DNA of 64,000 nucleotides, taken from positions 4,898,001 to 4,962,000 of the forward strand of contig OX359191.1 in NCBI GenBank assembly GCA_947172415.1, written 5' to 3'. The position numbers and the translations under genes were made by a program. Shown here in pieces: positions 3,637 through 61,147 of this stretch (positions are counted from its first letter, which is position 1; every line of letters begins with the position of its first letter). A model generated the notes under the pieces. That model had not been told where the DNA came from and did no database searches. It saw nothing but the letters and a program-made list of their open reading frames with translations. This stretch comes from Chondrosia reniformis. Its lineage: Eukaryota; Porifera; Demospongiae; Chondrillida; Chondrillidae.

Positions 3637-3846
3637 TCATTGGCGAATTATTTTTTTCGCGCCAGCAAGCGTGAGATCTGCGTCCATTTGTAAACGTTCT
3701 GACAAGGTTGAGTCACAAATGCCGAAGACCGGACGATCTTGGATCATTTCTTCTCTAAGGTCTCCATACGCACAGTCTTCTGCCAGTTGATAGACCCAGA
3801 TGATGAATTGTTGGGCCGATTCTGCGTCAATTGTCAAAGGAGGCAA
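3637..3846 (-). pseudogene. Gypsy gag fragment
   Basis: About 65 residues, including QFIIWVYQLAEDC, DRPVFGICDSTLSERLQ and DADLTLAGAKKI, resemble the C-terminal half of the capsid part of Mag-like Gypsy gag. The frame continues into the zinc knuckles except for the TGA at 3637-3639, which would be explained by CGA to TGA. The first codons (about 3838-3846) are TTG-led and probably belong to the abutting LINE 3' UTR. The gag N-terminus is absent. Confidence 0.75.
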
Positions 3847-3982
3847 AATTAAGGCTTCTGGCTAAAAACCCAAAGGAAGGTAAACATAACTGACTAAGGG
3901 TTGTCCAAGCCAGATACTCCTTGCCTTAGTAAACTAAGGCAAGAAGTAACAAGGTTCTCCATTAAGGCTTTTGTTTCTAAAG
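3839..3982 (+). mobile_element. 3' UTR end of LINE copy A
   Basis: The sequence matches the reverse complement of 18078-18235 over about 145 bp with scattered substitutions. In that copy it is continuous with the LINE's endonuclease region, so it is the 3' terminal part of the element. It ends GTTTCTAAAG at 3982 and is followed directly by the 13-bp array. Homology stops at about 3838, where truncated Gypsy gag begins, marking a deletion or recombination joint. Confidence 0.8.
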
Positions 3983-4340
3983 TAGGTTCTAGTACTAGTT
4001 ATACTAGTTACTAGGTAGGTACTAGTTGGATGTACTAGTTGTTTGAACTAGTTGTATGAACTAGTTGTATGTACTAGTTTTTTGTACTAGTTGTATGTAC
4101 TAATTGTATATACTAGTTTTATGTAATAGCTGTATGGTCTAGTACTAGTTATATTTACTAGTTGTAGGTTCTAGTTGTATGTACTAGTTGTGTACCCGGT
4201 GTAAGTACTAATTGTATGTACTAGTTGTAATACTAGTTGTATGTACTAGTTGTATCTACTAGATGTATGTCCTAGTTGTGTGTCATAGTTATACATACTA
4301 GTTGAATGTACTAATTGTATGTTCTAACTGTTTGTACTAG

Positions 4341-5982
4341 TTGTAAGTACTAGTTGTATGTAGTTGTTGTAAGTAGAAGTTGTATGTACTAGATGTATGT
4401 TCTAATTGAATGTACTAGTTTTATGTAGTAGTTGTATGTCCTAGTTATATTTACTAGTTGTAGGCTTTAGTAGTATGTACTAGTTGTATGTACTAATTGT
4501 GTATACTTTACTAGTTGTATGTACAAGTACTTGTTATATATACTAGTTGAAGGTTCTAATTGTATTTACTAGTTGTATGCACTAGTTTTAAGGACTAGTT
4601 GCATGAACTTGTTGTATATACTAGTTGTATCTACTAGTAGTATGGTCTAATTGTAAGTACTACTTGTATATATGTACTAGTTGTACGGTCTAGTTGTAAG
4701 TACTACTTGAAAGTATTATTTATATGTACTAGTCATATTTGTATTTACCAATTATATTTTGTAGTTGTACATTCTAGTTATATGTACTAGTTGTTTGTAC
4801 TAGACGTATGCACTAGTTGTATGTACAATTTATATGTACTAGGTATATGTACTAAGGTATATGTACTAGTTGTATGAATTAGCTGTATGGACTAGTTGTA
4901 GGGTCTAGTACTAGTTATACTAGGTACTAGGAAGGTACTAGTTGGATTTACTAGTTTTTCGTACTAGTTGTATGTACTAGGTTTTTGTACTAGTTATATG
5001 TACTAGTTGTAGGTACTAGTTGTATGTACTAGTTATATGTACTAGTTGTGGGTACTAGTTGTATGTACTGATTGTATGTACTAGTTGTATGAACTAGTAC
5101 ATACAATCAGTACTATTTACATGTACTAGTTGTATATGTATGTACTAGTTATATGTACTAGTTGTAAGTACTAGTTGTATGTAGTTGTTGTAAGTAGAAG
5201 TTGTATGTACTAGATGTATGTTCTAATTGAATGTACTAGTTTTATGTAGTAGTTGTATGTCCTAGTTATATTTACTAGTTGTAGGCTTTAGTAGTATGTA
5301 CTAGTTGTATGTACTAATTGTGTATACTTTACTAGTTGTATGTACAAGTACTTGTTATATATACTAGTTGAAGGTTCTAATTGTATTTACTAGTTGTATG
5401 CACTAGTTTTAAGGACTAGTTGCATGAACTTGTTGTATATACTAGTTGTATCTACTAGTAGTATGGTCTAATTGTAAGTACTACTTGTATATATGTACTA
5501 GTTGTACGGTCTAGTTGTAAGTACTACTTGAAAGTATTATTTATATGTACTAGTCATATTTGTATTTACCAATTATATTTTGTAGTTGTACATTCTAGTT
5601 ATATGTACTAGTTGTTTGTACTAGACGTATGCACTAGTTGTATGTACAATTTATATGTACTAGGTATATGTACTAAGGTATATGTACTAGTTGTATGAAT
5701 TAGCTGTATGGACTAGTTGTAGGGTCTAGTACTAGTTATACTAGGTACTAGGAAGGTACTAGTTGGATTTACTAGTTTTTCGTACTAGTTGTATGTACTA
5801 GGTTTTTGTACTAGTTATATGTACTAGTTGTAGGTACTAGTTGTATGTACTAGTTATATGTACTAGTTGTGGGTACTAGTTGTATGTACTGATTGTATGT
5901 ACTAGTTGTATGAACTAGTACATACAATCAGTACTATTTACATGTACTAGTTGTATATGTATGTACTAGTTATATGTACTAG
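4341..5982 (+). repeat. 821-bp higher-order tandem duplication within the array
   Basis: The block 4341-5161 is repeated at 5162-5982 and I saw no difference between them over the stretches compared, including rare variants (GTAGTTGTTGTAAGTAG and CTTTACTAGTTGTATGTACAA). Because flanking 13-bp units are highly diverged, such identity marks a recent duplication of a block of about 63 units. Confidence 0.85.
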
Positions 5983-6660
5983 TTGCATGTTCTAGTTATA
6001 CTTACTAGTTGTGTGTACTAGTTGTATGTACTAATTGTAGTACTAATTGCATGTTCTAGTTGTATGTACTAGTTGTATGTATTAGTTCTATGTACTTATT
6101 GCATGTATTTTACTAGTTGTATGTACTAAAACGTCCCATATTTACTAGTTAAACGAACTAATTGTATGTACTAGTAGTATGTACTAGTTGTATGGACTAG
6201 TTTTATGGACTAGTTTTATTTTCTAGTTGTATGTACTAGGACTCGATAAATTTACTAGTTTTAGGTACTAGTTGTATGTACTAGTTGTATGCACTAGTTG
6301 TATGCACTAGTTGTATGAACCAGTTACTAGATGTATGTACTACTTCTGTTTTCTAGATGTATATACTAGTTAATTGTACTAGCTTTATGGACTAGTCATA
6401 TGTACTAGTTGTTTGAACTAGTTGTATGTACTTATTGTATATACTCGTTACTAGTTGTATTAACTAGTTGAAGGTACTAGTTGTATGTACTATACTAGCT
6501 CTATTTACTAGTTGTACGTACTTCTTGAATGTACAAGTTGTATTTACTAGTTGTATGTACTAGTTGTTTTTATTAGTTGTATGTAGTTTGTGTATGTACT
6601 CCTTACTAGTTGAATGTACTAGTGGTATGTATTAGTTATATGAACTAATAGTATGTGTTA

Positions 6661-7059
6661 TACCATGCCGCTGAGGTTTATATGGGTTTTATACGTATGA
6701 GTCACGATGGCGAGTACGTATTTAAACCCATATACACCGAAACGCCGTGGTTTTAGTGATATATACTCCGTCATTTCTTATCATTATTTTGGAGGGACTT
6801 TCAGGATGGCTCATCTAGCATCTGGTTAGTTTTGCTTAAATGCTGACGACTTTATAGAATGCTCTTGTCCTGACTACTCCAATTGTCCTAAATGTAAGGA
6901 GAATTGTCCACCCTCCAAGTAGAAACATCTTGGTTTGTCATATTTGGGGAGGGATATAACAGAAATTAAGAAACCGATGGCAGTATATAGCATCTTAAAT
7001 TCTGTAATATCCCAGTTAGGAAATATATACACAGTCGGTTGCCCTGACAACGGGGTATA
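6661..7059. mobile_element. Foldback (hairpin) element, copy 1
   Basis: A non-array insertion whose sequence recurs at 42890-43241, in the same orientation, with about 80-85 % similarity by eye. The left part pairs with itself (ATACCATGCCGCTGAGG against CCGTGGTTT on the far side, and TATATGGGTTT against AAACCCATATA). A second hairpin near the right end pairs GGGATATAACAG with its inverse around GATGGCAGTATATAGC. No coding capacity is seen. It is a non-autonomous DNA element; no superfamily is assigned. Confidence 0.7.
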
Positions 7060-8960
7060 TGTACTCGTTATATTTACTAGTTGTAGGTACTAGTTATATT
7101 TACTGTTTGTATGTACTAGTACAAGTTATATTTACTATCTGTGGATACTAGTTGCATGTACTAGGACAAGTAATATTTTCTATTTCTATGTACTAGTTGT
7201 ATGTACTAGTTGTATATTCTAGTTGTATGTTCCAGTTATATGTACTACTTGTATGCACTAGTTGTACCTACTAGTTGTATGTACTAGATGTATGGACTAG
7301 TTTTATGTACTAGTTGTATGTTCTAGATGCATGTACTAGTTATATTTACTACTTGTATGTACTAGTTGTACGTACTAGTTGTATATACAAGTTTTATGGA
7401 CTAGTTTTATGGACTCGTTGTATGTACTAGTTGTATGTACTAGTTGTAGGTACTAGTTGTATGTACTAGTTTTATATCCTAGTTGTAAGAAGTAGTTGTA
7501 TATACTAGTTGTATGTACTCGTTGTAAGTACTACTTGTATGTACTAAATATATCTACTAGTTTTATGCACTAGTACTAGTTATATTTACTAGTTGTAGGT
7601 ACTAGTTGTATGTATTAGATGTAGGTACTATTTACTAGTTGTGTTACTAGTTGTATGTGCTAGTTGAATGCACTAGTACTAGTTATATTACTATCTTTAG
7701 GAACTAGTTGTATGTACTTGTTGTTTGTACTAGTTGTATGTATGAATTATATGTACTAGTTATATCTACTAGTTGTATGTACTATTTGTATGTAACAGTT
7801 CTGGTTATATTTATTATTTGTAGATACTTGTTGTATGCACTAGTTATAGCACTAGTTGCATGTACTAGTTCAATGTACCTGTTTTATGTACTAGTACTAG
7901 TTATATTTGCAATTTGTAGGTACGAGTTGTATGTACTAGTTGTACTTACTACTTACTAGTTGCATGGACTCGTTGTCTATAGTAGTTTTATGCACTAGTA
8001 GTAGGTACTAGTTGTTTGTACTCGTTACTAGTTGTATGTAGTAGTTGTATGTACGTGTTGTGTATATTAGATATATGTACTATTTGTATGTACTATTTGT
8101 ATACTAGTTTTATATACTAGTTGTAGTACTGGTGATATTTACTAGTTGCATGTACTAGCTGTAAGTACTAGGTGTAGGTACTGGTTGTATATATGTACAA
8201 GGACTGGTTATATTTACCAGTTGTAGGTAATAGTTGTATGTACTAGTTGTATGTACTCTTCACTACTTTAATGTAGTAGTTGTAGGTACTAGTTATATAT
8301 ACTAGCTGTATGTTCTAGTTGTATGTACTTGTTGTGTGTACTTGTTGTATATACTATTTGTATGTACTAGTTGTATGTATTAATTGTATTAACTAGTTCT
8401 CTGTCCTAGTTGTATGTACTAGTGGTACATACTAGTTGAAAGTACTAGTTGTATGTGCCAATTGCATGTACTAGTTGTATGTACTAGTTGTGTGGACTCG
8501 GTACTTTTGTAAGTACTAGATATTTGAACTAGTTGTATGTATTAGTTGTATGTACTAGAACTAGTTATATTTACTATTATTAAGTACTTGTTGTATGTAT
8601 TAGTTGTATGTATTAGTTGTATGTACTAGTTGTATGTACTAGTCGTACTTACTACTTACTAGTTGTATATACTAATTTCATGTACCAGTAATATGTACTA
8701 CTTGTATGTATTAGTTGAATGTATCACCTCTCTGTACTAGTTGTGTGTACTAGTTGTATGTACTCGTATTACGTACTAGTTGTATGCACTAGTTGTATGT
8801 ACTTGTTACTAGTTGTGTGTACTAGTTGTGTGTACTAGTTTTATGTTCAAGTTGTATTTCCCAGTTTTATGAAGTAGTTGTAGTTCTAGGTGTATGTACT
8901 AATTGTTTACCCTAGTTGAATGTACTAATTGTATATACTAGTTGTGTGTACTAGGTCTAT

Positions 8961-9419
8961 GATAAGCAAAAGTATTCACTGGAAGATATTATGGCAGACC
9001 AGCGAAGTAACTGAAGTCTAATCTTGGCTGGGGGACCAAAGTCCTATTAAAAATGGCAACTAGTGATTGCCTCCTAGTCATCCAAGAAGGAAAAATTCAT
9101 CAAAGAACCACAGACAGCTCTTTCTCCCTCATTTGGGCTCATCAATGTGGTACACTTCAATGATGGTGAGTTGGCTGACTTTCTTCACTTATTAATCTGC
9201 CACAAGTGAAACACTTGTGGTTTCGTAACAGGCAAAAAAGAAGGGCTACATTCTAAGCGAGACCAGGCGCTCACAACGAAAAAGGGGAATTAATTGCACT
9301 GAGCTAGGATGATAAGCAAAAGCATTCACTGGAAGATATTACGCCAGACCAGCCAAGTGACTGAAGTCTAATATTGGCTGGTGGACCGAAGTTCTATTAA
9401 ATATGTAGTTTTGAACTTT
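8961..9419 (-). mobile_element. Hammerhead-ribozyme repeat (retrozyme-like), 1.3 monomers, degenerate
   Basis: A 350-bp unit begins GATAAGCAAAAG at 8961, and its first ~108 bp recurs directly at 9311-9419. The minus strand carries a damaged hammerhead (9107-9153). The unit is related to the element at 24749-25309, sharing the CACAAGTGAAACACTTGTGG hairpin and the ATTGCACTGAGC / CTGAAGTCTAAT segments. Direct tandem monomers of about 350 bp with one hammerhead each are the layout described for metazoan retrozymes. It has no protein-coding capacity. The family assignment is an inference. Confidence 0.65.
9107..9153 (-). ncRNA. Degenerate hammerhead ribozyme
   Basis: On the minus strand stem I (GTACCACA with TGTGGTT), stem II (GCCC-AAATGA-GGG) and the GCTGTC cleavage region match the intact copy at 25123-25170. 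The core has changed from CTGATGAG to TTGATGAG and from CGAAAC to AGAAAG. Loss of core C3 should abolish self-cleavage. Confidence 0.65.
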
Positions 9420-11704
9420 AGTTTTAGCTTTCAAAAAGAATTGAATGTAGTTGTTGTATGTAGTACTTGTATGTACAAGTTATATGTACTAGTTGGATGT
9501 ACTAGTAACTGGTTGTATGTACTAGTTCTATATACTAGTTGTCAGTACTAGTTAAATGTTCTAGTTATATGTACTAGTAACTAGTTGCATATACTAATTG
9601 TATGTACTAGTTGTATGTACTACTTGCATGACCTAGCTGTATGTTCTAGTAGTAGTTATACTTGGTACTAGGTAGGCAATAGTTGTATGTACTAGATACT
9701 ATATAGTTGTTTCTATTAGTTGTATGTTCTAGTTATATTTACTAGTTGTAATTACTAGTTGTATGTAGTATTTGTATGTACTACCTGAATGTACCATATG
9801 TATGAACTAGTTTTACGTACTACTTGTATGTACTTGGTCCATGTACTATATAGTCGTAATGCTAGTTTAATGTACTAGTTGTAATACTGGTTTAATGTAC
9901 TAGTTGTATGACCTGGCTGTATGTACTATCTGTATGTACTAGTTGTATGTTCTAGTTGGATGAACTAGTTGTGTGTACTAGTGGTTTGTACTAGTTGTAT
10001 GTACTAGTTGTATGTAATATTTGTATGTAAAAGTTATGTACTAGTTGTGTGTCCTAGTTGTATGTACTAGTTCTTTGTACTAGTTGTATGTACTTGTTGT
10101 AGGTACTTGTTACTAGTTGTATGTACTAGTTGCATGTACTAGTTGAAATTCTAGTTTGATGTACTAGTTGCATGACCTAGTTGTATGTACTAGCTGTATG
10201 TACTATTTGTAGCACTAATATAATGTACTAGTTGAAAGAACTAGACGTATGTAGTACTATTTATATGTACTAGTTATATGTACTTGCTGTATTTATTAGT
10301 TGTTGATTCTAGGTTTAGTAGGTACTCAATAGGTACTAGTTGTATGTACTAGTTGTATGTACTTGTTGTATGTACTCCATTCTAGCAGTAGTTACTAGTT
10401 TTATGTACTTTCTGTATGCACTAGTACTGGGTATATTTACTAGTTGTAGGTGCTAGTTATATTTACTATTTGAATGTTCTAGTTCTAGTTGTAGGTACTA
10501 GTTGTATATATGTACTAATTGTTTGAACTTGTTGTATGTAGTAATTGTATGTACTAGTTTTATGTACTGGTTGTAAGAATTAGTTGTATGTACTAGTTGT
10601 TTGTCCTAGTTGTATGAACTAGCTGTATGTACTAGTTGTTTATACTAGTTGTATGTAGTAGTGGTAGGTACTAGTTATGTACTAGTTGTATGACGTAACT
10701 GTATATACTTGGTGTATGTACTAGTTGTATCTACTAGTTGTAATACTAGATTAGTGGACAAGTTGTATGAACTTGTTGTAAGTACCATCAGTATGTATTA
10801 GTTGTATGTACTAGTTGTTTGTACTAAATCCATGTACTAGTTGTAATACAAGTATAATGTACTAGTTGTATGTACTAGTTGTATATACTAGTTATGTACT
10901 AGTTGTGTGTACTAGTTGTATGTACTTGTTCTTTGTACTAGTTGTATGTACTTATTGAATGTACTCGTTACTAGTTGTATGTACTAGTTGCATGTACTGG
11001 ATACTACTTGTATGTACTAGTTACTAGTTGTATGTACTATATAGTTGTTTGTTCTAGCTGCATGTACTTGTTGTATATACTAGTAGTATGTACTAGTTGT
11101 ATGTTCTAGTTATGTACTAGTTGCATGAACTAGTTGTATGAACTGGATGAATGTACTAGGTGTATGTACTAGTTGTGTGTTCTAGTTATGTACTAGTTGC
11201 ATGAACTAGTTGTATGAACTAGATGATTGTACTGGTTGTATGTACTAGTTGTATGTACTAGTTTTGTGTACTAGTGATATGCACCAGTTGTATGTACTAG
11301 TTGTGTGTATAGGTGATATGTACTAGTTGTATGTACTAGTTGTGTGTATAGGTTATATGTACTAGCTTTATGTACTAGTTGTATGTACTAGTTCCATGTA
11401 CTAGTTGTAGGTACTTGTTGTATGTAGTAGTAATAATTATATTTACTAATTGTGTATTCTAGTTGTATGTCCTAGTTGTATATACTAGTTTTATGGACTA
11501 GTTTTATGGACTAGTTCTATGAACTGGTTGTGGAACTATATAGTATAATGTACTAGATATATGTACTAGTCGCATGTAGTAGTTGCATGTACAATATATA
11601 TGAACTTCTTCTGTGAACTAGTTGCAGTACTAGTATAATGTACTAGTTGTATGTACTAGTCGTATGTAGAAGTGGCATGTACTATATATATGTATATTTA
11701 CATA
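9420..11704 (+). repeat. 13-bp minisatellite array, forward orientation
   Basis: This continues the array after the ribozyme element, with the same TACTAGTTGTATG consensus. It includes related blocks such as GTTGATTCTAGG...TAGGTACTCAATAGGTACTAG near 10301, which recurs at about 13026. No coding sequence. Confidence 0.95.
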
Positions 11705-12427: not shown

Positions 12428-12435
12428 TTATGCAT

Positions 12436-13340
12436 ATTTACTAGTTGTATGTACTCGTTATATGAACTAGTTGTATGTACTAGCTTTATGTGCTAGTTGT
12501 AGGTTCTAGTACTAGCTATACTATGTACTATGTAGTTATCAGTTGTATGTATTAGTTGTTTGTCCTAGTTGCATGTACAAGTTGTATGTACTAGTTATAT
12601 GAACTAGAAGTATGTACTAGAACTAGTTATATTTCTTAGTTGTAGGTACTAGTTGTATGTACTAGTTGTGATGTAGTGGTTTTATGTACTAATTGTAGGT
12701 ATTAGTTGTATGTACTAGTTGTATGAACTAGTTATGTATTAGTAGTTTGTAATAGTTCTATGAACTAGTTGAAAATACTAGTTATGTACTAGTTGTATGT
12801 ACTAGTTGTATGTATTAGTTGTATTTACAAGTTATTTGTATTAGTTCTATGTACTAGTTCTATGTACTAGTTGTAGTACTAGTTTAATGTACTAGTAGTA
12901 TGTATTAGTTGTATGTACTAGTTCTATGCACTAGTTGTAGCACTAATATAATGTACTAGTTGAAAGTACTAGTCGTATGTAGTACTATTTATGTACTAGT
13001 TATATGTACTAGCTGTATGTACTAGTTGTTGATTCTAGGACTAGTTTTAGTAGGTACTCAATAGGTACTAGTTGTATATACTATTTGTTTGTACTAGCTG
13101 TATGTACTAGCTGTATGTACTAGTTGTGTGTACTTGTTGTATGTACTTGTTTTATGTACTCCATTCTAGCAGTAGTTACTAGTTTCATGTACTTTCTGTA
13201 TGCACTAGTCCTGGGTATATTTACTAGTTGTAGGTGCTAGTTATATTTACTATTTGTATGTTCTAACACTAGTTGTATATGGGTACTAATTGTTTGAACT
13301 TGTTGTATGTAGTAATTGTATGTACTAGTATTATGTACTG
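12436..13340 (+). repeat. 13-bp minisatellite array, forward orientation
   Basis: Same unit and orientation as 3983-11704, including another TAGGTTCTAGTACTAG block at 12501. It ends at the left inverted repeat of the Penelope-like element; beyond that element the array runs in the opposite direction. Confidence 0.93.
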
Positions 13341-16010: not shown

Positions 16011-18069
16011 ATTATTACATACAACTAGTACAAACAACTAGTAACTACAGCTAGTTAATATAACTATTACATACAATAATTACACACAATTAGTACATAC
16101 AAGTATTACATATAACTACATAAAACTAGTACATGCAACTAGTACATACAATTAGTACATACAAATAGTTACTAGAACAAAAAACTAGTACATACAAATA
16201 GTACATACAACTAGTAAGTACAACTAGTCCATATAACTAGTACATACAGCTAGTACATACAATTAGTACATACAAATAGGTACTTGTACATACAACTAGT
16301 ACATACAAATTGAACCTACAACTAGTACGTACAACTAGTCAATAAAATTAGCACATACAACTATTACATAAACCTAGTACCTTCAACTAGTATATAGAAC
16401 TAGTACATAGAAACTAATACCTACAACTAGTACAAAAAACTAGTACATAGAACTAGTACCTACAAATAGTACATACAACTAGTACATACAACTAGTAAAT
16501 ACAGATTATTATTAGTACATACAACTAGTACATATAACTAGAACATATAACTAGTTACTAGTACATACAACTAGTACATACAGCTAGTACGTACAACTAG
16601 TACACGCAACTAGTTACTAGTACATACATCTAGTACATACTACTAGTACATTCAACAAGTTACTTGTTAATACAACTAGTAACTGCAACTATAAAATATA
16701 ACTACTCCATACGACAATTGCACACAACTAGTTCACACAACTAGTCCATATAACTAGTACATTCATCTACTACATAAAACTAGTACCTACAACTAGTTAC
16801 TAGTAGATACAGCTAGTACATGAAAGTAGTGCATACAACTATTACATACAAATAGTACATGCAACTAGTACCTATACATACAACTAGTTACTAGTACATA
16901 CAATAAGCACATACAGCTAGTCCATACAACTAGTAACTACAACTAGTAAATATAACTAGTACCTACAACAATTCCACACAATAAGTATGTATAACTAGTA
17001 CATATAACTAGGACATACAACTAGTATATACAATAAGTATCTAGTAAATAATACCAGTATATACAAATAATAAATACAACTACTGCATACAACTAGTTTA
17101 TTCATCTAGTTACCAGTAAATACAACTAGAACATACAACTAGTACATAAAAACAGTTAATACAACTAGTAAATATAACTAGTACAAACAACAATTACACA
17201 CAACTAGTACATACAAGTAGTATTTATAGCTACATACAACTAGTACATACAACTAGTACATAAAATTTGTACCTTCAGATAGTTACTAGTACATACAACT
17301 AGTACATACAAATAATACATACAACTAGTACGTATAACTAGTCCATATAACCAGTAATTACAAGTACCCCATAAAACTAGAACCTACAACTAGTACAGAG
17401 AACTACTACATAAAATTAGTACATAGAACTAGTACATAGAACTGGTACATAGAACTAGTACATTCAACTAGTAACTACAACTAGTAAATAAAACTAATAC
17501 ATACAACAATTACATTCAACTAGTACAAACAACTAGAACATATAGTACATACAACTAGTACATTACAACTAGTACATACAACTAATAAATACAGATTATT
17601 ACTATTACATACAACTGGTACCTATAACTAGTACATATAACTAGTTTCTAGTACATTCAACTAGTACAAACAACTAGTCCATACAACAAATACATACAAC
17701 TAGTACATACAACTAGTACATACAACTAGTACATCCAAATAGTTACTAGTACATACAACTAGTACATACTACAAGTACATACAACCAGTGACTAGTACAT
17801 AGAACTAGTAACTACAACTAGTACATAGTACTAGTACACACAACTAGTAACTAAGACTAGTTAATATTACTGCTACATTCAACTAGTACATACTACTAGT
17901 ACATACAACAACATGCAGCTAAGACCAAAATGTGTAAATAGAACTAGTGCAGAGATCTAGCACCTACAACTAGTACATAGAACTAGTACATACAATCAGT
18001 ATATACAATCAGTACGTACGACTAGTACATACAACTAGTACATTAAACTAATGCATACAACTAGAACTA
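16011..18069 (-). repeat. 13-bp minisatellite array, reverse orientation
   Basis: The plus strand reads ACATACAACTAGTA, the reverse complement of the unit at 3983-13340. The array is uninterrupted to the A-rich 3' tail of the LINE at 18070-18077. No coding sequence. Confidence 0.95.
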
Positions 18070-18077
18070 TTTTTTTT

Positions 18078-18351
18078 CTTTAGAAACAAAAACCTTAACG
18101 GAGAACCTTGTTACTTTTTGCCGTAGTTTACTAAGGTAAGGAGTATCTGGCTTGCATGGACAACCCTCAGTCAGTTATGTTTTCCCTTCTTTGGATTTTT
18201 AGCCAGAAGCCTCGGATTTGCCTCCTTCCGGCAGCAGCAGACAGGTGCATGTCGGGCCAAAGTTGCCCATCATAATAGGAGGGAGTACCTCCATACACCA
18301 ATTTACCACTACTTTCCAGAGGTCTACAGGCAAGGACTGGGACAGGACTAC
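18078..18351 (-). other. LINE copy B 3' UTR
   Basis: Non-coding sequence after the endonuclease frame. Its last 157 bp is shared with 3839-3982 and ends GTTTCTAAAG, then eight A. The segment nearest the ORF is shared with no other part of the window, because copy A has lost it and copy C is cut by the window end. Confidence 0.75.
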
Positions 18352-18949
18352 TTATCGTCCAGGTCCCAATCCCTCAACAGATAGATGTCGCCTCAATATC
18401 CTTACAGCCGAGCAGAGAACAGTTCTCTGCATCGCTCTCATCACCTCTACAGCACCTTTTGACAGCTTTGGAATTCCCCTTAGGTCTTCCAGGAGCATGT
18501 CCACTGTCCCCAAAGCCCCAATTATCATCGGGACTATCTTAATTCCGGAGCTCCTAAATTGTTTCCTCATATCAGCCCCCAGCTTGTGGTACTTTTGGAA
18601 CTTCTCTTGCCATCTTCCATTAAGATTGCTGTCAGGAGTGACTGACATCTCAATAAATGAAGATAGACTTACATAGCCGATCCTCAACCACTAAGTCTGG
18701 CCTTCTTTCTGTCATTTCATCATCTGTAGGGATACTAGGATCCCCCAAAATTTTGACAGCCCTATTCTCATAGACTGGTTTTGCTTCTAGTTTGTACCAG
18801 GGCTCTTCCTGCTTGAATCCATATTCTTTCAACAGTCTCCACAACACTATCAGTATTGCCCGGTCATGTCTCTCTTTGTAGAGAGAAAATCCCTTGGACT
18901 CACACATGTTTATATAGTATGTGTTTGACCGTTTCCATAGCCTTGCCAC
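18352..18949 (-). pseudogene. LINE restriction-like endonuclease domain
   Basis: Two overlapping frames. The first (18650-18949) gives SLYKERHDRAILIVLWRLL and ERRPDLVVEDRLCKS. The second (18352-18687) resumes FIEMSVTPDSNLNGRWQEKF, QKYHKL and then KIVPMIIGALGTV. RPD, about a dozen residues and a hydrophobic-Glu/Asp with V.PD.N and EK..KY is the catalytic core of the restriction-like endonuclease that nicks the target for priming. A one-base frameshift lies at about 18655-18665. The domain sits at the C-terminus, as expected for R2/R4-type elements. Confidence 0.85.
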
Positions 18950-19547
18950 ATTCTCTGCACATTAGGAGGCTAGAATTCCTCAGAATCCTATTTTGGTACC
19001 ACCTAGTGTCCAGCACATTATCTTGGGCTGCGAGAATCAGAGCCTCAGTTTGAGGTCTGAGTCTCCCCTCACAAAGCCACACATATGACTCCCTATTTGT
19101 GACTTGTCTGTGGTATGAGCCTTGGTGAGACCTTTTGGCTAGGTTACTTTTTAACCTTTCAGTCTGAGCCTCCCGGAGCTCACGTGCCAATCTCCTCCAT
19201 TCTCTTACACTATTTTGTGGGGGATCTGTCTTCAGCCACATTTCCGGTTCTAGTTCTATTCCGTGGCTTCTCAGTATCAATCTGGCTTCTTTCAAGACAG
19301 TCCTCCTCTGCTTTGAGCACTCCAGCCACTTTTGGTGTTTAACCACAACAGCTATGATTGGATCATTGGCCGTATGGAGGTATCTTGCCAGATTGACAAC
19401 AGCCCTGTCGTGATCAAAAGGAAAATTACAGAGCTCTCTACCACCTTGAGAGCGAAGCAAGTTCACTCTCTCAATGGCAGAGTTGTAGTGATGACACTGG
19501 TACTTTCTCATGATCTTTCTCACCATTCTGTCCAGTTTTGGGCTCAC
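18900..19547 (-). pseudogene. LINE RT C-terminal region with CCHC knuckle
   Basis: Follows the palm: LDRMVRKIMRKYQCHHYNSA, LARYLHTANDP, a helical region SVREWRRLARELREAQTERL, then CRECGKAMETVKHILYKH with the last Cys (CESKGF) supplied in a shifted frame at about 18900. C-X2-C-X7-H-X4-C before the endonuclease is conserved in R2/R4-type proteins. The frame changes at about 19550 (from the YMDD ORF) and at about 18910 (to the endonuclease). Confidence 0.82.
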
Positions 19548-20231
19548 TTTGAGTCCACCTCAAAACTGGGTAAGAGTATCTCAATAGAGAGGGACACAAC
19601 ATGTTAGAGGCTTCTGCAGCATTCTTACCATTGAGGTGAGAGCCCCACACTTTGTGGAGTCTCCTCCTCAATTCATTGATCAAGCAAGCTTTGACCTTGC
19701 TGTCATCTACCTCAAACAGTTGTTCTAGCCCTAGGTACTTATAAGTAGTACCTTTTTCAAGGCTCCTTATAGATTCCTCACTGCGTTCAGGGTTGTCTGG
19801 GCCAGCTAGAACTTTCCCCTTTTGCATGTGAGCTGTTCCACACTTTCTCACTCCAAACCTCATGCCAATGGCATTTGAGGTTTTCTCCACACATTCCATG
19901 GCTTCCCTGAGTTGATCAGGCCCTCCGGCATATATCTTAAGGTCATCCATGTACAACAAGTGTGATATGGTGTTCCTTTCCCCATTATACCAGAGGGTAT
20001 ATCCCTTGGTTCTGTTAAGAACTTGGGATATGGTAGCTATGGCAAGACAAAAGAGGAGTAGCGATAAGGAGTCTCCTTGGAAGAGTCCCTGTTATATTTA
20101 ACAGGGGTGCTCCTAACCACCTTCCCCGCAGTCCTCAACTCAAGCACAGTAGCCCAGTGTTTTGAGAAGAGCTCTATAGACCTCCCGATCCAACCTGGGC
20201 ACTTGATGGTTTTTGCACCTTCATCACCCAC
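19471..20231 (-). pseudogene. LINE reverse transcriptase palm (YMDD) and connection
   Basis: The segment 19471-19959 starts at LYMDDLKIYAGG (motif C, two catalytic Asp, 19942-19953), followed by NAIGMRFGVRKCGTAHMQKG (motif D region) and YKYLGLEQL, then RRRLHKVWGSHLNGKNAAEA. The part upstream (20037-20231, other frames) carries the remains of motif B, clear in copy C as GLFQGDSLSPLLF. YMDD.K.Y, with IGM.FG..KC downstream, is typical of R2-like RTs. Several frameshifts lie between 19960 and 20310. Confidence 0.88.
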
Positions 20232-20307
20232 CTGTGAGGGACTCTGTCATATGCCTTTACATAATCGATCCAAGCCACACTAAGTGGCTTGCCCATAATT
20301 TTGGCAT

Positions 20308-21013
20308 CTAGACCGATTGTTTGATCCAGCAGAAGACAGTACACACAGCCCCACCTCCTTTTCTCATGGCCCTTTGGGCCATAGGCAAAAGATCATTACT
20401 GTAGATGTAAGTGAGTAGTTCTGATGCAATGAATGTTGTGACCGCCTTGTACATTGTGTTGAGACATGCAATAGGTCGGTGGTTGGCCACACTTTTCGTG
20501 TCACCTTTTTGGGAATGAGTAGAGTGCGACCCCTTGTAAGCCAGTCTGGGACTGACAGATCTCCGCTCACCACCCTCCGTAATACATCTGCCAAGGCAGA
20601 CTGTGCAGAGGGGAGTGCTTTCCACCAAAAAGTGTGGATCCCATCCGGCCCAGGGGCTGACCAGCTTTTTACCTTTTTCAAGGCTGTCCTCAGTTTGGTC
20701 TCATCAATGCTATCGGCACCTTCAGAGGAGGTTCTACCAACCCTCTTTTTGGTTTCCTTTAGCCATTCTTTCACCCTGGGTCGTCTTTGTTGACCTTACC
20801 AACAGTACCTACAATCTTTGTACAAGAGTCTCTTACTACCTCAATTGAGGGAGCTTCATTGGAGGTTGGAACATTGCCATTCATCCGGAACTTCCTTTGG
20901 GTATACCAAAGGTGGCTTTGTTCCTGGAATTTCCTGCATTCAGCCGATCTTCGCTCTTGCAGAGTCCAGACCCTGAGTTTCCCCAGTGTCTGTTCTCGAG
21001 CTCTGATCAGCAC
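20308..21013 (-). pseudogene. LINE reverse transcriptase N-terminal part and fingers
   Basis: The ORF from 21013 (LIRAREQTLGKLRVW, ERRSAECRKFQEQ) leads to APSIEVVRDSCTKI, SWSAPGPDGIHTFWWKALPS and LTRGRTLLIPKK (RT motifs 0-2). A frameshift at about 20510 moves to RPIACLNTMYKAVTTFIASE and NDLLPMAQRAMRK (motifs 2a-3). PGPDGI and RPI.CL...YK are conserved in R2-like RTs. Copy C preserves the same segment as one longer ORF, which supports the reading. Confidence 0.85.
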
Positions 21014-21021
21014 ATTCAGGT

Positions 21022-22113
21022 TTAATGAATGGAACTCCCTCCTAAGCTTTCTTCTTCTTTCTTCAAAGGATTATTATTCTGTTGACACGCTATTTCCACA
21101 TCCAACCAGGCAAGCAGTCTTCTAAACCTAAGGCCCTTGGCCTTTCTGTCACTTATGTGACCTTCCCGTCTCTTACTTCCCTTCTGATTGTCTGATTTCC
21201 TTCCCTGGTTACATGGCTGCAATTCGTAGGTTGTTTTTCCCCTCACAGCCATGGCAACAGAGTAGACCAGGCAGTTAAGGTGCAAGGCCGACCTAGGGCC
21301 TTTCTGCCACTCTTTCTCCACCCAATCATTGGCCTCCTGAAGCAGTGCCGTATCAACATGGTTGAACCGCACCGCCCCACAGGGTGTTCTATCAGAGAAA
21401 TCTCCAGGTTGCTTTCGGAGACCGGCATCTTTTGCTTTGCCTAAAAGTTGCATAAGTTGACCAGTGCCACTTGTCCTGGGACTAGGATGATCAGTTGTAG
21501 GAGTTTCAAAAGGGGCTGCAGGCAGTTTACCATTTTGTTCAGTCCCAGCCTGAACTTGGTGAAACTCCCCTTGCCCCTGGGCTCCCACACCTTCCTCCAC
21601 AGTCTCAGTTAGTGTGGCTAAACCACGAGAGTCAGGTTCCACAAGGTTTAGTCTCGAGAGACCTTGACCTCTTCGGATTCTACTAATTCTCGTAATTAGC
21701 GCTACCTTTGTGGTTTTATGGTCTGGCATTGCAGCATTCCAAGCCTGATACAACTGCTCGGCATACCCCTTTTTCATGGGCTTACTTTCTCGGTAGAGCT
21801 CCATGAGTATATTATCCCTCTGAAAGTTCCAGATCAACCCTTGGATCCTTCTCCTTCTAGAGGCACCTTGCGGTGCATCATTAACCAAATGTAAATCTCG
21901 GCTACCCGTTACTTGCAGTACTCCGTCTCCTACCAAGTTCCTTTTGGCTTGGAAGGCAAGGGTTCAACCGGTCTGAGGCAAATGTGGGAACTTGCTCAGC
22001 CATTCCCGCTCTAAACGCTTCTGATAGCCACCCATTTTGGGTAGAGATCGCTCATAGCAATCAATTAGTGCCCTAACGATTTCCTCGGTCCAGAGGGCTG
22101 GTTGGCCCATCAT
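21022..22113 (-). pseudogene. LINE ORF N-terminus with two SANT/trihelix-like domains
   Basis: The start ATG is at 22111-22113. Residues 1-48 read QPALWTEEIVRALIDCYERS, then GGYQKRLEREWLSKFPHLP; about 70 residues later NILMELYRESKP, KGYAEQLYQAWNAAMPDHK and TKVALITRISRIRRG follow. Each has the Trp/Tyr-rich W..E....L..CY..S.P..gY..rL...W pattern of SANT/trihelix DNA-binding domains, so there appear to be two in tandem. A linker rich in Pro, Gly and Gln follows, then a basic stretch to the RT. A TGA at 21964-21966 (CGA in copy C) breaks the frame between the domains. Binding of the 13-bp target by these domains is an inference. Confidence 0.75.
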
Positions 22114-22430
22114 GGGGACTGAAGAAAGGCTATTACATTCAGGTACATCTACATGTTAAGCACCAGTGGAATCACCTATTCTGGTTGATCCAGGGTTTTC
22201 TTCATCACTAGTGCACCTAGGCCATAGTCTGTCTTGAAACGTTTGATTCTCGTGACGCAACGTAACCCAGTGAAGCTGCGAGACGGTGGGTTAGCCCATA
22301 CTGGCTAGGAGGCCGTTTTAGCCACAGGATGTCACATGAAGGGCTAAGCACCCTGCTCCGTCGGGGGGTTGAACTGGACAATACCCATCCTCTTGTCAGC
22401 TCAGAACCACAGCCTCCAATTCCCTTGACA
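22114..22430 (-). other. LINE copy B 5' leader
   Basis: About 317 bp between the array junction and the first ATG, strongly conserved with 60832-61147: GAGGCTGTGGTTCTGAGC, GGATGGGTATTGTCCAG and GGGTTACGTTG are shared. It is GC-richer than the surroundings and could form a structured RNA. R2-type elements often start with a self-cleaving ribozyme, but I could not fold one with confidence here. Confidence 0.65.
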
Positions 22431-24748
22431 ACTAGTACTATATATAACTACTAAATAGAACTACTTAATAATACCAGAACATATAACTTGCACATACAAC
22501 TAGTTACTATTACATACAACTAGTACATAAAACTAGTAACTGCAACTAGTAAATATAACTAGTTCATACAAAAATTACTCACAACTACTACATACAAATA
22601 GTACATACAAATAGAACATACTACTAGTCCATATACCTAGTCCATATAAATAGTAAATTCAACTAGTACATACAACTAGTAATTATACCAAGTATATACA
22701 ACAAGTACCTACAACTAGTACATAACTATTATATAGAATTAGCAGATACAACTGGAACATACAGCTAGCATATAACTAGTATTTACAACTAGTACATACA
22801 ACTGGGACTACAACTAGTACATATAACCAGTGCATACGCATATAACTAGTACATATAAATAGTAAATTCAACTAGTACACACAACTAGTACATACAACTA
22901 GTACATACAACTAGTACATGCCCCTAGTTACTAGTACATACAACTAATTACAAGTACATACAACTAGGACATACAACTAGTACGTAAAACTAGTCACTAC
23001 AACTAGTACATATAACTTGTATATACAACAATTACACAAAACTACTACATACAAGTAGTCCATACAACTAGAACACACTACTAGTACATATAAATAGTAC
23101 ATATAAATAGTACATTAAACTAGTACATACAACTAGTACATATAAAAAGAACATACAACCAGTACCTACAACTAGTACATAACAATTACATAGAATTAGT
23201 ACATACAACTCGAACATACAACTAGCACATAACTAGACATACAACTAGTACATACAACTAGGACTACAACAAGTAACTAGTACATAATACTAATACATAC
23301 AAATAGTACATACAACTAGTAACTACAGCTAGTAAGTATAACTAGTACAAACAACTAGTACATACAACTATTATATACAAGTAGTACATAAAACTAGTAA
23401 CTACAACTAGTAAATATAACTAGTACATACAACTAGTACATACAACTACTACATACAATTAGTACATACAACTAGTAACTACAACTAGTAAATATAACTA
23501 GTACATAAAACTAGTACATACAACTACTACGTACAATTAGTACATTAAACTAGTAACTACAACTTGTACATACACTAGTACAAATAACTTCATACAATTA
23601 GGACATACAGATAGTTAGAAGTCCATATAACTAGTACATACAACTAGTACATACAATTATTACATGCAACTAGTATTAGTGTATACAATTATAACATACA
23701 ACTAGTAACGAATACTTACAACTAGTACATTCAACTAGTACATACAATTAGTACATACAACTACATCATACAATTAGTACTTACAACTAGTACTAGAACT
23801 AGTACATATAACCAGTACAAACAGATATAACTAGTACACATAACTAGTACATACAACTAAACTACATACAACTAAAACCTAGTACATACAACTACTACAT
23901 AAACCTAGTACTAGGACATACAACTAATACATACAACTACTATATACAATTAGTGCACACAACTAAAACATTAAATTTGTACATATAGCTAGTACAGACA
24001 ACTACTACATACAAATAGTAAATATAACTAGTACATTCAACAATTACAAACAACTATTACATATACTGGTACATTTAACTACAAACAACTAGTACATACA
24101 GCTAGAACAAACAACTAGTACATACAACTAATACCTACACTTATAACAAGTTACTCATACAGACAACTAGTACATACAACTAATACATACAACTAGTAAC
24201 TACAACTAGTTAATATAACTAGGACATTCAACAATTACACCCAAGTAGTACGTACAACTAGGACAAATAACTAGTACATACAAGAAGTATATTCTGCTAG
24301 TATCTAGTACATAAAACTAGTACATACAATTAGTACATACATCTAATTACTAGTACAAACAACTAGTATATAAAACTAGTACACATAACTAGTACATATA
24401 ACTTGTAACTAAAACTTGTAACTAAAACTAGTAAATATAACTAGTCCATACAACAATTAAATACAACTAGTAAATTCAACTAATACCCTTAACTACATAC
24501 AACTAGTACATATAACTAGAACATATAGATAGTTACTAGTACAAACAACTAGTACATACAACTAGTACATGCAACTAATTACTAGTACATACAACTAGTA
24601 CCTATACATAAAACTAGTTACTAGTACATACAAATAGTACATACAACTAGTACATACAACTGATATATGAAACTAGTATCTAGTATATAAATTAGTACAT
24701 ACAACTAGTACATAAAAGCAGTCACTACAACTAGTAAATATAACTATT
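22431..24748 (-). repeat. 13-bp minisatellite array, reverse orientation
   Basis: ACATACAACTAGTA-type repeats on the plus strand continue the reverse array interrupted by the LINE. A segment from about 22563 to 22930 recurs with changes at about 25323-25700 (shared rare variants such as ATAGAACATACTACTAG and TAGAATTAGCAGATACAACTGG), so a block of about 2.7 kb was duplicated. Confidence 0.93.
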
Positions 24749-25309
24749 AAAAGGGAGTTAATTGCACTAAGCCTGTGCAAGGGCTAAAATGATCAAAAAT
24801 AATCGCTGGAAATTATTACACCAAGCCAGCCAAGTGACCGAAGTCTTATCTTGGCTGGGAGACCGAAGTCCTATTAAGTTAGCAACCAGTGATCGCCCCC
24901 CAGTCATCCAAAGATGAAAAAATTGGTGTAATAATTTCGAGTGATTATTTTTGATCATTTTAGCCCTTGCACAAGCTTAGTGCAATTAACTCCCTTTTAA
25001 TTGTGAGTGCTCAGTCTCACTTAGACTCTAGCCTCCATCCTCACTTAAAATGAAACCACAAGTGTTTCACTTGTGGTGTATTTATTAGTGAGGGCGGTCA
25101 TCCAATTTACCATCATTGAAGTGTACCACACTGATGAGCCCAAATGAGGGCGAAACAGCTGTCTGTGGTTCTTTGATGAATTTTTTCATTTTTGGATGAC
25201 TGGGAGCCGATCACTGGTTGCTAACTTAATAGGACTTCGGTCTCCCAGCCAAGATAAGACTTCAGTCACTTGGCTGGTTTGGTGTAATAATTTCCAGTAA
25301 TTATTTTTA
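24749..25309 (+). mobile_element. Hammerhead-ribozyme element (retrozyme-like) with inverted partial copy
   Basis: A complete unit runs from GGTGTAATAATTTC at 24925 to its direct recurrence at 25281, giving a 356-bp monomer. It carries an intact hammerhead at 25123-25170 and a CACAAGTGTTTCACTTGTGG hairpin. The left part, 24749-24924, is an inverted partial copy, so arms pair across the element (AAGGGAGTTAATTGCAC with its inverse; CCAAGCCAGCCAAGTGACCG with its inverse). No protein is encoded. The monomer size, single type I hammerhead and lack of ORF match animal retrozymes. Confidence 0.72.
25123..25170 (+). ncRNA. Hammerhead ribozyme (type I, minimal stem III)
   Basis: All conserved positions are present. 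Stem I is ACCACA pairing TGTGGT. The core is CTGATGA (25131-25137). Stem II is GCCC-AAATGA-GGGC. The second core is GAA (25152-25154). A15.1 pairs with U16.1 in a 2-bp stem III with loop AGCT, and the cleavage-site H17 is C at 25163. The predicted product is self-cleavage after 25163, giving a 2',3'-cyclic phosphate end. Stem III is self-complementary (ACAGCTGT), so a dimeric double hammerhead is more likely to be active, as for other animal hammerheads with very short stem III. Confidence 0.88.
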
Positions 25310-28300
25310 AATACAACTAGTACATACATAAATTACCCACAACTACTACATACAAATAGTACATACAAATAGAACATACTACTAGCACATTTAACTATTA
25401 CATATAAATAGTAAATTCAATTAGTACATACAACTAGTAATTATACAAAATAAATACAACTAGTACCTACAACTAGTACATAACTATTACATAGAATTAG
25501 CAGATACAACTGGAACATACAACTAGCATATAACTAGTATATACAACTGGTACATACAACTAGGACTACAATTAGTACATATAACCAGTATATATATACG
25601 CATATAACTAGTACATATAAATAGTAAATTCAACTAGTACATACAACTAGTACATACAACTAGTACATGCACCTAGTTACTAGTACATACAACTAGTTAC
25701 AATTACATACAACTAGGACATACAACTAGTACATACAACGAGTATATAGTGCTAGTATCTACTACATAAAACTGGTACATACAACTAGTACATACAACAA
25801 GTTCACACAACTACAACATACAACTAGTTCGTACAACTAGTACATACATCTAATTACTAGGACAAACAACTAGTACATAAAACTAGTACATTCAACTAAT
25901 TACTAGTAAATACAACTAGTAGCTATCCACACAACTAGTTACTAGTACATACAAATAGTACATACAACTAGTACATAAAACTAGTGACTACAACTAGTAA
26001 ATGTAACTAGTACATACAACTACCATATGAAACTAGTATCTAGTGCATAAAATTAGTACATACAACTAGTACATACAATTATTACAAACAACTAGTACAT
26101 ACATTAAGGTACTAGTGCATACAACTAGTACATACAACTAGTACATACAACTAGAACATACAACTAGTACAAAACAATTACATAGAATTAGTACATACAA
26201 CTGGAACATACAACTAGCACATAACTAATACATACAACTAGTACATACAATTAGGACTACAACTAGTAACCAGTACATACAACTAATACATACAACTAGT
26301 ATATACAATTATTACATGCAACTAGTACTAGTTCATACAATTATAACATACAACTATTAACGAATACTTACAATTAGTACATACAACTAGTACATTCAAC
26401 TAGTACATACAATTAGTACATACAACTACATTACACAATTGGTACTTACAACTAGTACTACAACTAAGACATATAACCAGTACACATTACTTGTACATAC
26501 AACTAAACTACATACAACTAAAACCTAGTACATACAACTACATTCAACTAGTGCACACAACTAGAACAATAAATTTGTACATAAAGCTAGTACAGACAAC
26601 TACTATATACAAATAGTAAATATAACTAGTACATACAACAATTACAAACAACTAATACCTATACATATAACAAGTTACTAGTACAGACAACTAGTACATA
26701 CAACTAGTACATACAACTAGAACATACAACTAGCACATAACTAATACATACAACTAGTACATACAATTAGGACTACAACTAGTAACCAGTACATACAACT
26801 AATACATACAACTAGTATATACAATTATTACATGCAACTAGTACTAGTTCATACAATTATAACATACAACTAGTAACGAATACTTACAATTAGTACAAAC
26901 AACTAGTACATTCAACTAGTACATACAATTAGTACATACAACTACATCACACAATTGGTACTTACAACTAGTACTACAACTAAGACATATAACCAGTACA
27001 AACACATATAACCAGTACACATTACTTGTACATACAACTAAACTACATACAACTAAAACCTAGTACATACAACTACTACATTCAACTAGTGCACACAACT
27101 AGAACAATAAATTTGTACATAAAGCTAGTACAGACAACTACTATATACAAAGAGTAAATATAACTAGTACATACAACAATTACAAACAACTAATACCTAT
27201 ACATATAACAAGTTACTAGTACAGACAACTAGTACATACAACTAGTACATACAACTAGTAACTACAACTAGTAAATATAACTAGTACATTCAACAATTAC
27301 ACACAAGTAGTTCGTACAAGTAGTACAAATAACTAGTACATACAACAAGTATATAGTGCTAGTATATAGTACATAAAACTAGTACATACAACCAGTACAT
27401 ACAACAAGTTCACACAACTAGAACATACAACTAGTTCATACAACTAGTACATACATCTAATTACTAGTACAAACAACTAGTACATAAAACTAGTACATGT
27501 AACTAGTACATATAACTTGTAACTAAAACTAGTAAATATAACTAGTCCATACAACAATTAAACACAATTAGTAAATTCAACTAATACCCTTAACTACATA
27601 CAACTAGTACATACAACTAGTACATACAACTAGGACATACAGAGAGTTACTAGTACAAACAACTAGTACACAACTAGTACATACAACTAATTACTAGTAC
27701 ATACAACTAGTGCATACAATCAGTACATACAACTAGTACCCATACATACAACTAGTTACAAGTGCAGATGAATAGTACATACAACTAGTACATACAACTA
27801 GTGACTACAACTAGTAAATATAACTAGTACAGACAACTAGTATATTAAACTAGTATATAGTACAAAAAATTAGTACATAACACAAGTACATACAACCAGA
27901 ATGTACAACTAGTACTATAACTACTACATAGAACTAGTTCATATAACAAGTTCATATAAGTCACTTTCAACCAGTACATATAACTAGTAATACATAGTAC
28001 TAGTATATAGGACTAGTAACTACAAGTAGTAAATATAACTAGTACATACAACAATTACACACAACTAGTACATACAACTTGAACATATAACTACATACAA
28101 CTAGTACATACAGATTGTTGGTTGTACAAAGCACTAGTACATAAAAGTAAAACATAAAACTAGTCCATATAAATAGTATATACAACTATTTACTAGTACA
28201 AACAATTAGTACATACAATTAGTACAAACAACTATTACATACACCTAGTACATACAACTAGTAACTACAACTAGTAAATATAACAAGTACAGACAACAAT

Positions 28301-30300: not shown

Positions 30301-30305
30301 TATCT

Positions 30306-55383: not shown

Positions 55384-55401
55384 CTAGACTGTATTTTAAA
55401 A

Positions 55402-58247: not shown

Positions 58248-58308
58248 CAAGTAGTTCGAGTGCATGGGAGGCGGCAGCCCCCACGAGTTTTTTAACTCAA
58301 ACTACTTG
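58248..58308. repeat. Hairpin at the left edge of the third array block
   Basis: CAAGTAGTTCGAGT pairs with ACTCAAACTACTTG around a GC-rich loop (GGAGGCGGCAGCCCCC). It directly abuts the first 13-bp units. Confidence 0.6.
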
Positions 58309-60831
58309 TTTGTACTAGTTTTATGTAATAGTTGTATGTACTAGTTACTAGTTGTATATTCTCGTTGTATGTAGTAGTTGTATATAATTGCTTTATGTGC
58401 TACCTGTATGTATTAGTAGAATGTTCTAGTTGTATCTACTATTTGTAAGAACTAGTTGTATGTACTACTTGTATGAAGTAGTTATTTTGTACTAGTACTA
58501 GTTATATTTACTAGGTGTAGGCCCCAGTCGTATGTGTACTAGATGTATGTACTAGTAACAAGTTTTATGTACTGGTTGTATGAAGTAGTTGTTTATACTA
58601 GTTGTATGTACTAGTTGCATGTAGTTGTTGTATAGAGTAGTTTCATGTACTAGTTGTATGTACTAGTTGTATGTACTCGTTACTAGTTGTATGTACTGTT
58701 TGTATTTTCTAGTTGTATGTACTATCTGTATGTAGTAGTTGTATGTAGTAGTTTTATGCACTAGTTGTAAGTAGTAGTAACTAGTTGTATGTACTCAATA
58801 CTATTTGTATGTTCTAGACGAATGTAGTAGTTATTTGTACTAGTTCAATGTGTAAGTAGTGTGTAATTGTTGTATGTACTAGTTGGATGTACTATTGTCT
58901 AATTGTATGTACTAGTTGTATGTACTAAATGTTTGAACTAGTTTAGGTTCTACTACAAGTTATACTAGGTACTAGGAATGAACTATTTCTATGAACTACT
59001 TGTTTGTTTGTGTGAACTAGTTTTCTGTTCTAGTTGTATGTATTATATTTATGTACTATATTTATGTACTAGTTTAATGTGTATGTATTAGTCATATGTA
59101 ATAGTTATATGTACTTGTTATATGTACTAGTTGCATGTACTAGTTGTATGCACTAGTAGTATATACTAGTTGTAGGTTCTAGTCCCAATTATACCAGGTA
59201 CTAGGGAGGTACTAGTTGTATATACTAGACACTAGTTGTATGTACTAATTATATGTCCTAGTTATATGTACTAGTTGTATGTACCAGTTTTGTGTACTTG
59301 TTGCATGTAATAGTTGTGTGTACTAATTTTATGTACTAGTTGTATGTTTTAGTTGTATGTACTACTTATATGTACTCATTACATTTGTATGTACTGGGTG
59401 TATGTACTAGTTACATATATTAGTTTTACGTACTATTTATATGTACTGTATATATGTGTATGTACTAGGTCTATGTACTACTTGTATGTACTAGGTGTAT
59501 AAGCTCGTTGTATATACTAATTCTACGTACTAGTTGTGTGTACTAGTTGTGTGTACAAGATATGAACCAGTTGTATGTACAAGATGTATTCACTAGTTCT
59601 TTGTACTAGCTATATACTAGTTTTATGAACTAGTTGTATGTACTAGTGGTATGTACTAGTTGTTTGTACTAGTCGCATGTACTAGTTATATGTACTAGTT
59701 ACTAATTGTTTAAACTAGTTGTTCCTATTAATTTTATGTACTAGTTGTATGTACTAGTTGTATGTATATACCAGTTGTATGTACTAGTTAAATGCACTAA
59801 TTATATGTATATACTAGTTGCATGTACTAGTTTCTAGTTACATTTACTAGTTTTATGAACTAATTGTATGAACTATGTGAATGCACTATTTATTTGAACT
59901 AGTTATATTTTTATGTATTAGTTATTTATAGTAGATGTGTGTACTAGTTATATGTACTAGTTGAAAGTATTAGTTGTATGTCTAGAAATAGCTATATTTA
60001 CTAGTTTTAGGTAATAGTTGTATGTACTAGTTGCATGTGCTAATTGTATGAACAAGTTGTGTGTACTAGTTGTATGTATATACTAGTTGTATGTACTAGC
60101 TATGTACTAGTTGTTTGTTCTAGTTGTATGTACTAGATACTAGTTGCATGTACTATTTGCATGTACTAGTTGTACGTACTAGTTGTATCTTCTAGTTGTA
60201 TTTACTATTTGTATATACTTGTTATATGTTTGTGTACTAGTTATATGTTCTATTTATATTTTTTAGGTATATGTGCATGTACGCGTTATATGTAGTAGGT
60301 GTATGTACTAGTTAATATGTCCTAGTTGTTTGTGCTAGTTGTACGGATGAGTTGAATGTACTAGTTGTATGTTCAAGAATTATGTATTCGTTCTATGAAT
60401 TAGTTGTATGTACTAGTTTCTAGTCGTATATAATAGTTGTATTTACTAGTTTTATGTATTAGGTGTATGTACTATTTTATATATTAGTTATATGTGTATG
60501 TACTGGTTATATGTAGTAGTTCTATGTTCCAGTTGTATGTACTAGTTTCCTGTACTTGTTGTATGTGCTAGCTGTATGTACTTATTGTAGGTTCTAGTAC
60601 TAGTTATAGTAGGTACTAAGTAGGAATTAGTTGTATGTACTAGTTGTTAGTACTACTTTAACGTACTAGTTGTAGGTACTAGTTTTATGTACTAGTATTG
60701 GTTATATTTACTAGATGTAAGTACTGGTTGTATGAAGTATTTGGATGTAGTAGTTGTATGTACTAATTGTTTGTACTAGTTGTATGTACCTTGTAAGAAC
60801 TGGTTATGTACTAGTTGTATGTATATACAAC
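58309..60831 (+). repeat. 13-bp minisatellite array, forward orientation
   Basis: TACTAGTTGTATG units with TAGGTTCTA-type blocks at about 58933, 59171 and 60591, as in the array at 4-13 kb. It runs straight into the 5' end of LINE copy C. Confidence 0.94.
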
Positions 60832-61147
60832 AGTCGTGGGAATTGCAGGCTGTGGTTCCGAGCTGACAGGAGGATGGGTATTGTCCAGTTCAACCCACTG
60901 ATGGAGCAGGCTGCTTAGCCCCTCATGTGGCATACTTGGCTAAATCAGACTCCCTGTCAGCATGGGATAACCCCCCGTCTGGCAGTTTCATTGGGTTACG
61001 TTGTGCCATGAGAATAACAATTTTCAAGACAGACTGTGGCCTAGGTGCACCAGTGGTGAAATAAACCCTGGGTCAACCAGAATAGGTGATTCCACTGGTA
61101 CCTCGCAGGTAGATATACCTGAATGTAATAGCCTTTCTTCGGTCCCC
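60832..61147 (+). other. LINE copy C 5' leader
   Basis: About 316 bp, matching 22114-22430 of copy B. The array-to-element boundary lies at CAACAGTCGTGGGAATTGC; homology between the copies starts at GGGAATTG. Confidence 0.65.

Follow-up and report, generated by a model that had tools for sequence, protein, structure and literature searches.

A stretch of 64,000 nucleotides from the sponge Chondrosia reniformis (contig OX359191.1, positions 4,898,001 to 4,962,000; hereafter, the window) carries three copies, A, B, and C, of a long interspersed nuclear element (LINE) next to arrays of a 13-bp tandem repeat, which raises the question of whether this satellite is the target to which the element is adapted. 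The array is massive, with 689 units at one mismatch or less in the 64-kb window for 0.95 expected. A previous, sequence-only reading had proposed a LINE specific for the minisatellite and always inserted in the same direction. The copies do adjoin the array, A at its 3′ side, B at both sides, and C at its 5′ side, and all three run in the TACTAGTTGTATG sense, including the minus-strand copy B within its minus-sense array; B and C are sizeable, whereas A is merely a 3′ fragment (table 1). Insertion also proved sequence-selective with respect to orientation, phase, and TATTTA-containing units. What finds no support is the minisatellite as the element's own target: the family is very probably an R2-type LINE whose home is the 3′ end of the 18S ribosomal DNA (rDNA) and which also attacks the look-alike 13-bp satellite.

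Location of the LINE Copies

A reverse transcriptase (RT) search of the genome (117,379,552 bases in 15 contigs) returned at least 133 places, and an exact 19-base pattern of the 3′ end of the element occurs 201 times. The 40 best-scoring RT copies were analyzed with 1-kb flanks, together with the 3′ windows of the next 20. Among the 40 fetched copies, 23 lie in the sense array, one at a sense-array edge (L036), four in the antisense array, six at unique sites (L025, L029, L031, L032, L038, and L049), and six at rDNA loci (L013, L016, L017, L015, L021, and L023). L029, called antisense by the 26-nt class caller, was counted as unique because its 900-nt flanks hold no array, and L023 was assigned to rDNA through its neighbors on C6. 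The 20 further 3′ windows comprise 14 copies in sense array by score, two more that were unclear by score and judged sense by eye (L059 and L061), one antisense, one with an 18S tail at a nonarray site (L062), and two without a readable 3′ end (L052 and L069).

The sequence-only reading had considered that many full-length copies outside the array, or a random orientation within it, would contradict its proposal. The first of these was found in part, as 12 of the 40 fetched copies are at rDNA or unique sites, several of them full length, and the array is thus not an exclusive target. The other 28 copies, within or at the edge of the array, compare with an array share of very roughly 7% of the genome (8 Mb, scaled from 3018 and 2882 exact double units on the two strands, 5,900 in total, 21 of them in the window). 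Part of this enrichment may be due to survival bias, which leaves the orientation, the phase, and the choice of units unaccounted for.

The 18S rDNA Insertion Site

At rDNA, the LINE lies within the last ~40 bp of the 18S gene. The 3′ flank of L013, L016, and L017 is TAAAAGTCGTAACAAGGTTTCCGTAGGTGAACCTGCGGAAGGATCAT, which we take to be the end of 18S, and Rfam identified 5.8S and LSU rRNA downstream of the LINE in L016 and L017. The exact 18S-type 3′ junction is present at six places genome-wide, L062 included; the rDNA copies that were read are all at the 18S end and not at the R2 28S site. We place the cut around ...GGAAG/TAAAAGTCGT/AACAAGG (here and below, slashes mark cuts or junctions). 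In a tree of 42 copies, location classes are mixed and branches are shortest for the copies at rDNA, of which three, on three chromosomes, are identical.

Copies elsewhere in the genome also carry 18S bases. GTCGT stands exactly before GGGAATT in 22 of the 26 distinct 5′ ends read (after collapsing one junction listed twice in the source set), and 99 exact GTCGT-tagged 5′ ends occur genome-wide. By comparison with general 18S, this pentamer corresponds to the five 18S bases preceding the insertion point. In the window, the 5′ end of copy C reads GTCGTGGGAATT and contains this 18S-like tag. The tag and the near-identical family copies at the 18S 3′ end both argue against the minisatellite as the element's own target. 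At the 3′ side, the 18S sequence beyond L062 stops after ~17 nt at a nonarray location, as though a short stretch of 18S had traveled with the RNA to another site. Two rDNA copies, L015 and L021 (C6, ~7.7257 Mb), are arranged head to tail and joined by the 18S piece AAGTAAAAGTCGT; this pair is a second insertion into a duplicated site.

The retention of 18S bases resembles the situation of R2, whose RNA often keeps rRNA bases through a cleavage 9–36 nt upstream of the 5′ junction (PMC3774820). A hepatitis delta virus (HDV)-like ribozyme with the 18S GUCG in stem P1 can be drawn, but the loose descriptor is also met by 476 of 2000 dinucleotide shuffles, and Rfam detected no ribozyme in four copies at E-values up to 5.

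Unit Choice and Similarity to the 18S Site

Exact target-site duplications (TSDs) of 9–16 bp were found in 13 of the 30 copies with both flanks readable, the clearest being at the unique sites L025, L031, L032, and L038. Among 13 TSD-resolved insertions in sense array, TATYTA precedes the cut by exactly 12 nt in nine, for a background of 52 of 2377 array GTAs in the window; these 13 were selected, among the 24 sense copies having a 5′ flank, because a TSD was placeable in them by hand. Their cuts having been placed by hand, more weight should be given to a genome count made without selection: 14–22 nt before the 5′ tag, TATTTA occurs 22 times versus 15 for TATGTA, for an array background of 12–15% TATTTA (P = 8e-10 to 1e-11; the count drew on two listings, and one 5′ end was counted in both).

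For the 18S gene, we assume that the sequence before the cut is that of general 18S, CATTTAGAGGAA/GTA or TATCTAGAGGAA/GTA; a listing gave the string of the ITS1-F primer. Compared with the upstream 12-mer of this reference, two unique-site insertions match closely, L049, which reads CATTTAGAGGGA/GTA, at 11 of 12 positions and L038, which reads TATTTAGAGGTA/GTA, at 10 of 12, and none of ~5,090 background positions matches as well.

These observations bear on the explanation advanced by the sequence-only reading, which has the satellite as primary and selected target; the copies at rDNA and unique sites would then be leakage. The array does hold most of the fetched copies and at least 89 of the 201 exact 3′ ends in sense orientation, and its use is selective in both phase and orientation. 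We nevertheless regard this explanation as unlikely, given that dispersed copies carry the 18S bases GTCGT, that the rDNA copies are nearly identical, that L038 and L049 match 18S and not the array core, and that the preferred array units are an 18S-like minority.

Orientation and Phase within the Array

Exact octamers following the 3′ end place 112 rows genome-wide in sense array, corresponding to at least 89 distinct ends, and two in antisense array, unlike the array itself, which is about equally frequent on the two strands according to double-unit counts. Some copies were amplified with the satellite, as flanks are common to L035/L043/L064/L068, to L047/L058, and to three listed sense-array 3′ ends. 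Once shared flanks are collapsed, 34 independent sense insertions remain versus five antisense (P = 2e-6). Orientation within the array is therefore far from random, yet the claim of a single direction is reduced to a strong bias, 5 of 60 copies reading antisense (L020, L026, L028, L042, and L055).

Phase was scored at 37 sense junctions, or 34 after collapsing shared flanks; L020 and L040, with odd 3′ ends, were left out, and L042, L044, and L023 have no usable end. Eighteen of the 34 fall at one of the 13 phases, TTG/TATG (P = 6e-12 vs. 1/13), and the preference also holds among the three phases that start with TA (P = 4e-5). An AGTYGTA core common to the array and to 18S downstream of the nick was considered and rejected, the preferred phase matching at 2/13 and 5/20 positions, below other phases.

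Insertions might also accumulate in the array without any targeting, simply because they are harmless there, and then multiply with the satellite. The shared flanks listed above show that coamplification does occur, as copies A and C, with their similar 3′ flanks, also suggest, but the excess of sense insertions and the single preferred phase persist after these flanks are collapsed, and harmlessness does not account for the TATTTA preference, which makes this explanation very unlikely. A loose endonuclease, with orientation and phase set solely by the pairing of the RNA tail (AAGUA) with array TA/GTA, would fit the TA that starts 46 of 54 3′ flanks after AAG but is scarcely credible, as each sense unit offers two GTA sites of which phase 9 accounts for 18 insertions and phase 0 for one, GTA is also present on the antisense strand, and the TATTTA preference lies ~12 nt away, beyond the annealed tail.

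A Probable Home Site and a Look-Alike

We thus favor an element at home in 18S that also enters the satellite, and the following sequence of events would be compatible with its distribution. Produced along with the pre-rRNA, the LINE RNA would have its 5′ end fixed 5 nt upstream, within 18S, and would thereby keep GUCGU. The protein would recognize a motif (TATYTA or CATTTA ... GTA) situated ~12 nt before the first nick, nick the bottom strand, and prime on a short TA/GTA match. Its attack on the 13-bp satellite would follow from the resemblance of some units to the 18S recognition site; in units of the form TATTTAnnAGTTGTA, only one orientation presents the motif. Numerous array copies would then represent recurrent hits by the rDNA element, some of which were later multiplied with the satellite. 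A more far-reaching version, which we consider conceivable but somewhat short of probable, is that of a dual-target LINE, with the 18S gene as live source and a second, heritable reservoir in the midchromosome (perhaps centromeric) satellite, whose units would be true 18S-mimicking recognition sites; satellite and LINE may then have shaped each other.

Several points weigh against an 18S home. In this assembly, copies in the array far outnumber those in rDNA, five array copies are antisense, and the tree is poorly supported, at 7 of 37 inner branches. The upstream 18S reference is general 18S and may differ from that of C. reniformis; L025, L031, and L032 match it at 6, 6, and 7 of 12 positions, which 3–11% of the background equals, and, on the downstream side of the nick, the preferred array phase does not resemble 18S (2/13, 5/20). 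Moreover, whereas 13 of the true flank pairs of 22 sense array copies reach the TSD score cut-off, eight of them exactly, swapped 3′ flanks (12 trials) still give 2–8 above the cut-off and 0–6 exact of 22. The swap trials indicate that the array duplications are genuine taken together, but that some single TSDs, as well as the placement of the cut in the 13 insertions above, may have arisen by chance.

Protein and Relation to Known Elements

The full element measures ~4.35 kb and contains a single open frame of 1317 codons, and a frame of at least 1300 codons is present in 11 of the 40 copies (copies with incomplete sequence being skipped). In L022, the first ATG of the open reading frame (ORF) is codon 71. 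The protein matches RVT_1 (Pfam; E-value 5e-29), and a PDB search with its RT gave R2 proteins as best matches (E-value 2e-22). Toward the C-terminus, the ORF reads CRECGK...H...C at 1118 and RPDLVV at 1202, candidates for a CCHC knuckle and an RPD...D/E endonuclease motif. The last 206 residues of the L022 ORF weakly match a viral endonuclease-type domain (PF15518, L protein N-terminus; E-value 0.015), and a likeness of the R2 endonuclease to cap-snatching endonucleases is mentioned in PMC7650587. The RT active site reads YMDD (residue 786 of the L022 ORF) and not A(F/Y)ADD, the motif AF/YADD being stated for all non-long terminal repeat (non-LTR) elements (PMC3774820). For the two putative trihelix-like domains suggested by the sequence-only reading, residues 60–225 gave no Pfam match, Myb included, even at an E-value of 10, and an ORF motif scan found no CxxC zinc finger before the RT (CxxC at 654 and 1118 only). 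Judging from these motifs and matches, the element would be an R2-type non-LTR retrotransposon, with an RT and a putative restriction-like-endonuclease (RLE)-type C-terminus.

It differs from R2 itself by its target, the end of 18S and not 28S, and by the apparent lack of a CxxC-type zinc finger before an RT that is otherwise closest to R2 proteins in PDB. R8 of Hydra (R8Hm-A and -B) is also an R2-type element at a specific 18S site (PMC5035012; PMC7650587), but the accessible descriptions of R8 contain no satellite target, and the RT of the sponge LINE reads YMDD. Dong (TAA), Togen (TG)n, and some HERO elements are RLE LINEs that insert in simple repeats (PMC3774820; PMC4640811); their repeat is the known target, whereas the 13-bp satellite apparently mimics a site in rDNA. 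Shifts of rDNA target (R8, R9) and repeat-targeting LINEs are already known. In the literature searched, with subscription papers and the original R8 paper outside its scope, we found no rDNA LINE for which a satellite serves as a second target.

Porifera have other R2-like proteins away from the R2 28S site, the R2-homologous/Utopia-like elements (PMC13188248). That 2026 survey, the accessible main text of which does not name C. reniformis, classed Myb-bearing sponge R2-homologous elements as non-site-specific, whereas the C. reniformis LINE is site-selective, with an 18S site as its likely home, a preference for the array, and a readable off-target code. The natural ends, about 200 in a single genome, map the choice of DNA by an rDNA LINE, which is of relevance to gene insertion, for which R2 proteins are used, and to the entry of LINEs into satellites.

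Other Features of the Window

Table 1. LINE copies and 13-bp arrays in the window (coordinates in window numbering)
Feature	Position	Strand	Remarks
Copy A	3837..3982	+	146-bp 3′-terminal LINE fragment; plus-sense 13-bp array directly after
13-bp array	4015..11684	+	TACTAGTTGTATG sense on + strand
13-bp array	12434..13339	+	
13-bp array	16016..18064	-	At 3′ side of copy B
Copy B	18078..22425	-	Near full-length LINE; reading frames interrupted; array at both sides
13-bp array	22479..30300	-	At 5′ side of copy B
13-bp array	30305..37743	+	
13-bp array	58301..60823	+	At 5′ side of copy C
Copy C	60833..64000	+	LINE running past the window end to ~65184

Copy B is ~94% similar to young LINE copies. 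Because the 3′ flanks of copies A and C are similar, these two may represent a single insertion duplicated along with the satellite. The array orientation switches abruptly at 30300–30305 (~30303), without any intervening element. Most of positions 1–3830 is filled by a minus-strand retroelement that ends near the truncated copy A and was assigned as Ty3/gypsy-like by eye, from its protease-, RT-, and integrase-like reading frames. A second tandem repeat of ~45 bp (GTTCTAAGTCTGTCTAAAGTTGTTCGAGTGTAGC) forms three arrays (38276–38606, 39069–39452, and 45410–45797), and a G-rich, 42-bp minisatellite (GGGTGGGGGTGGTGG) is found at 40122–40268.

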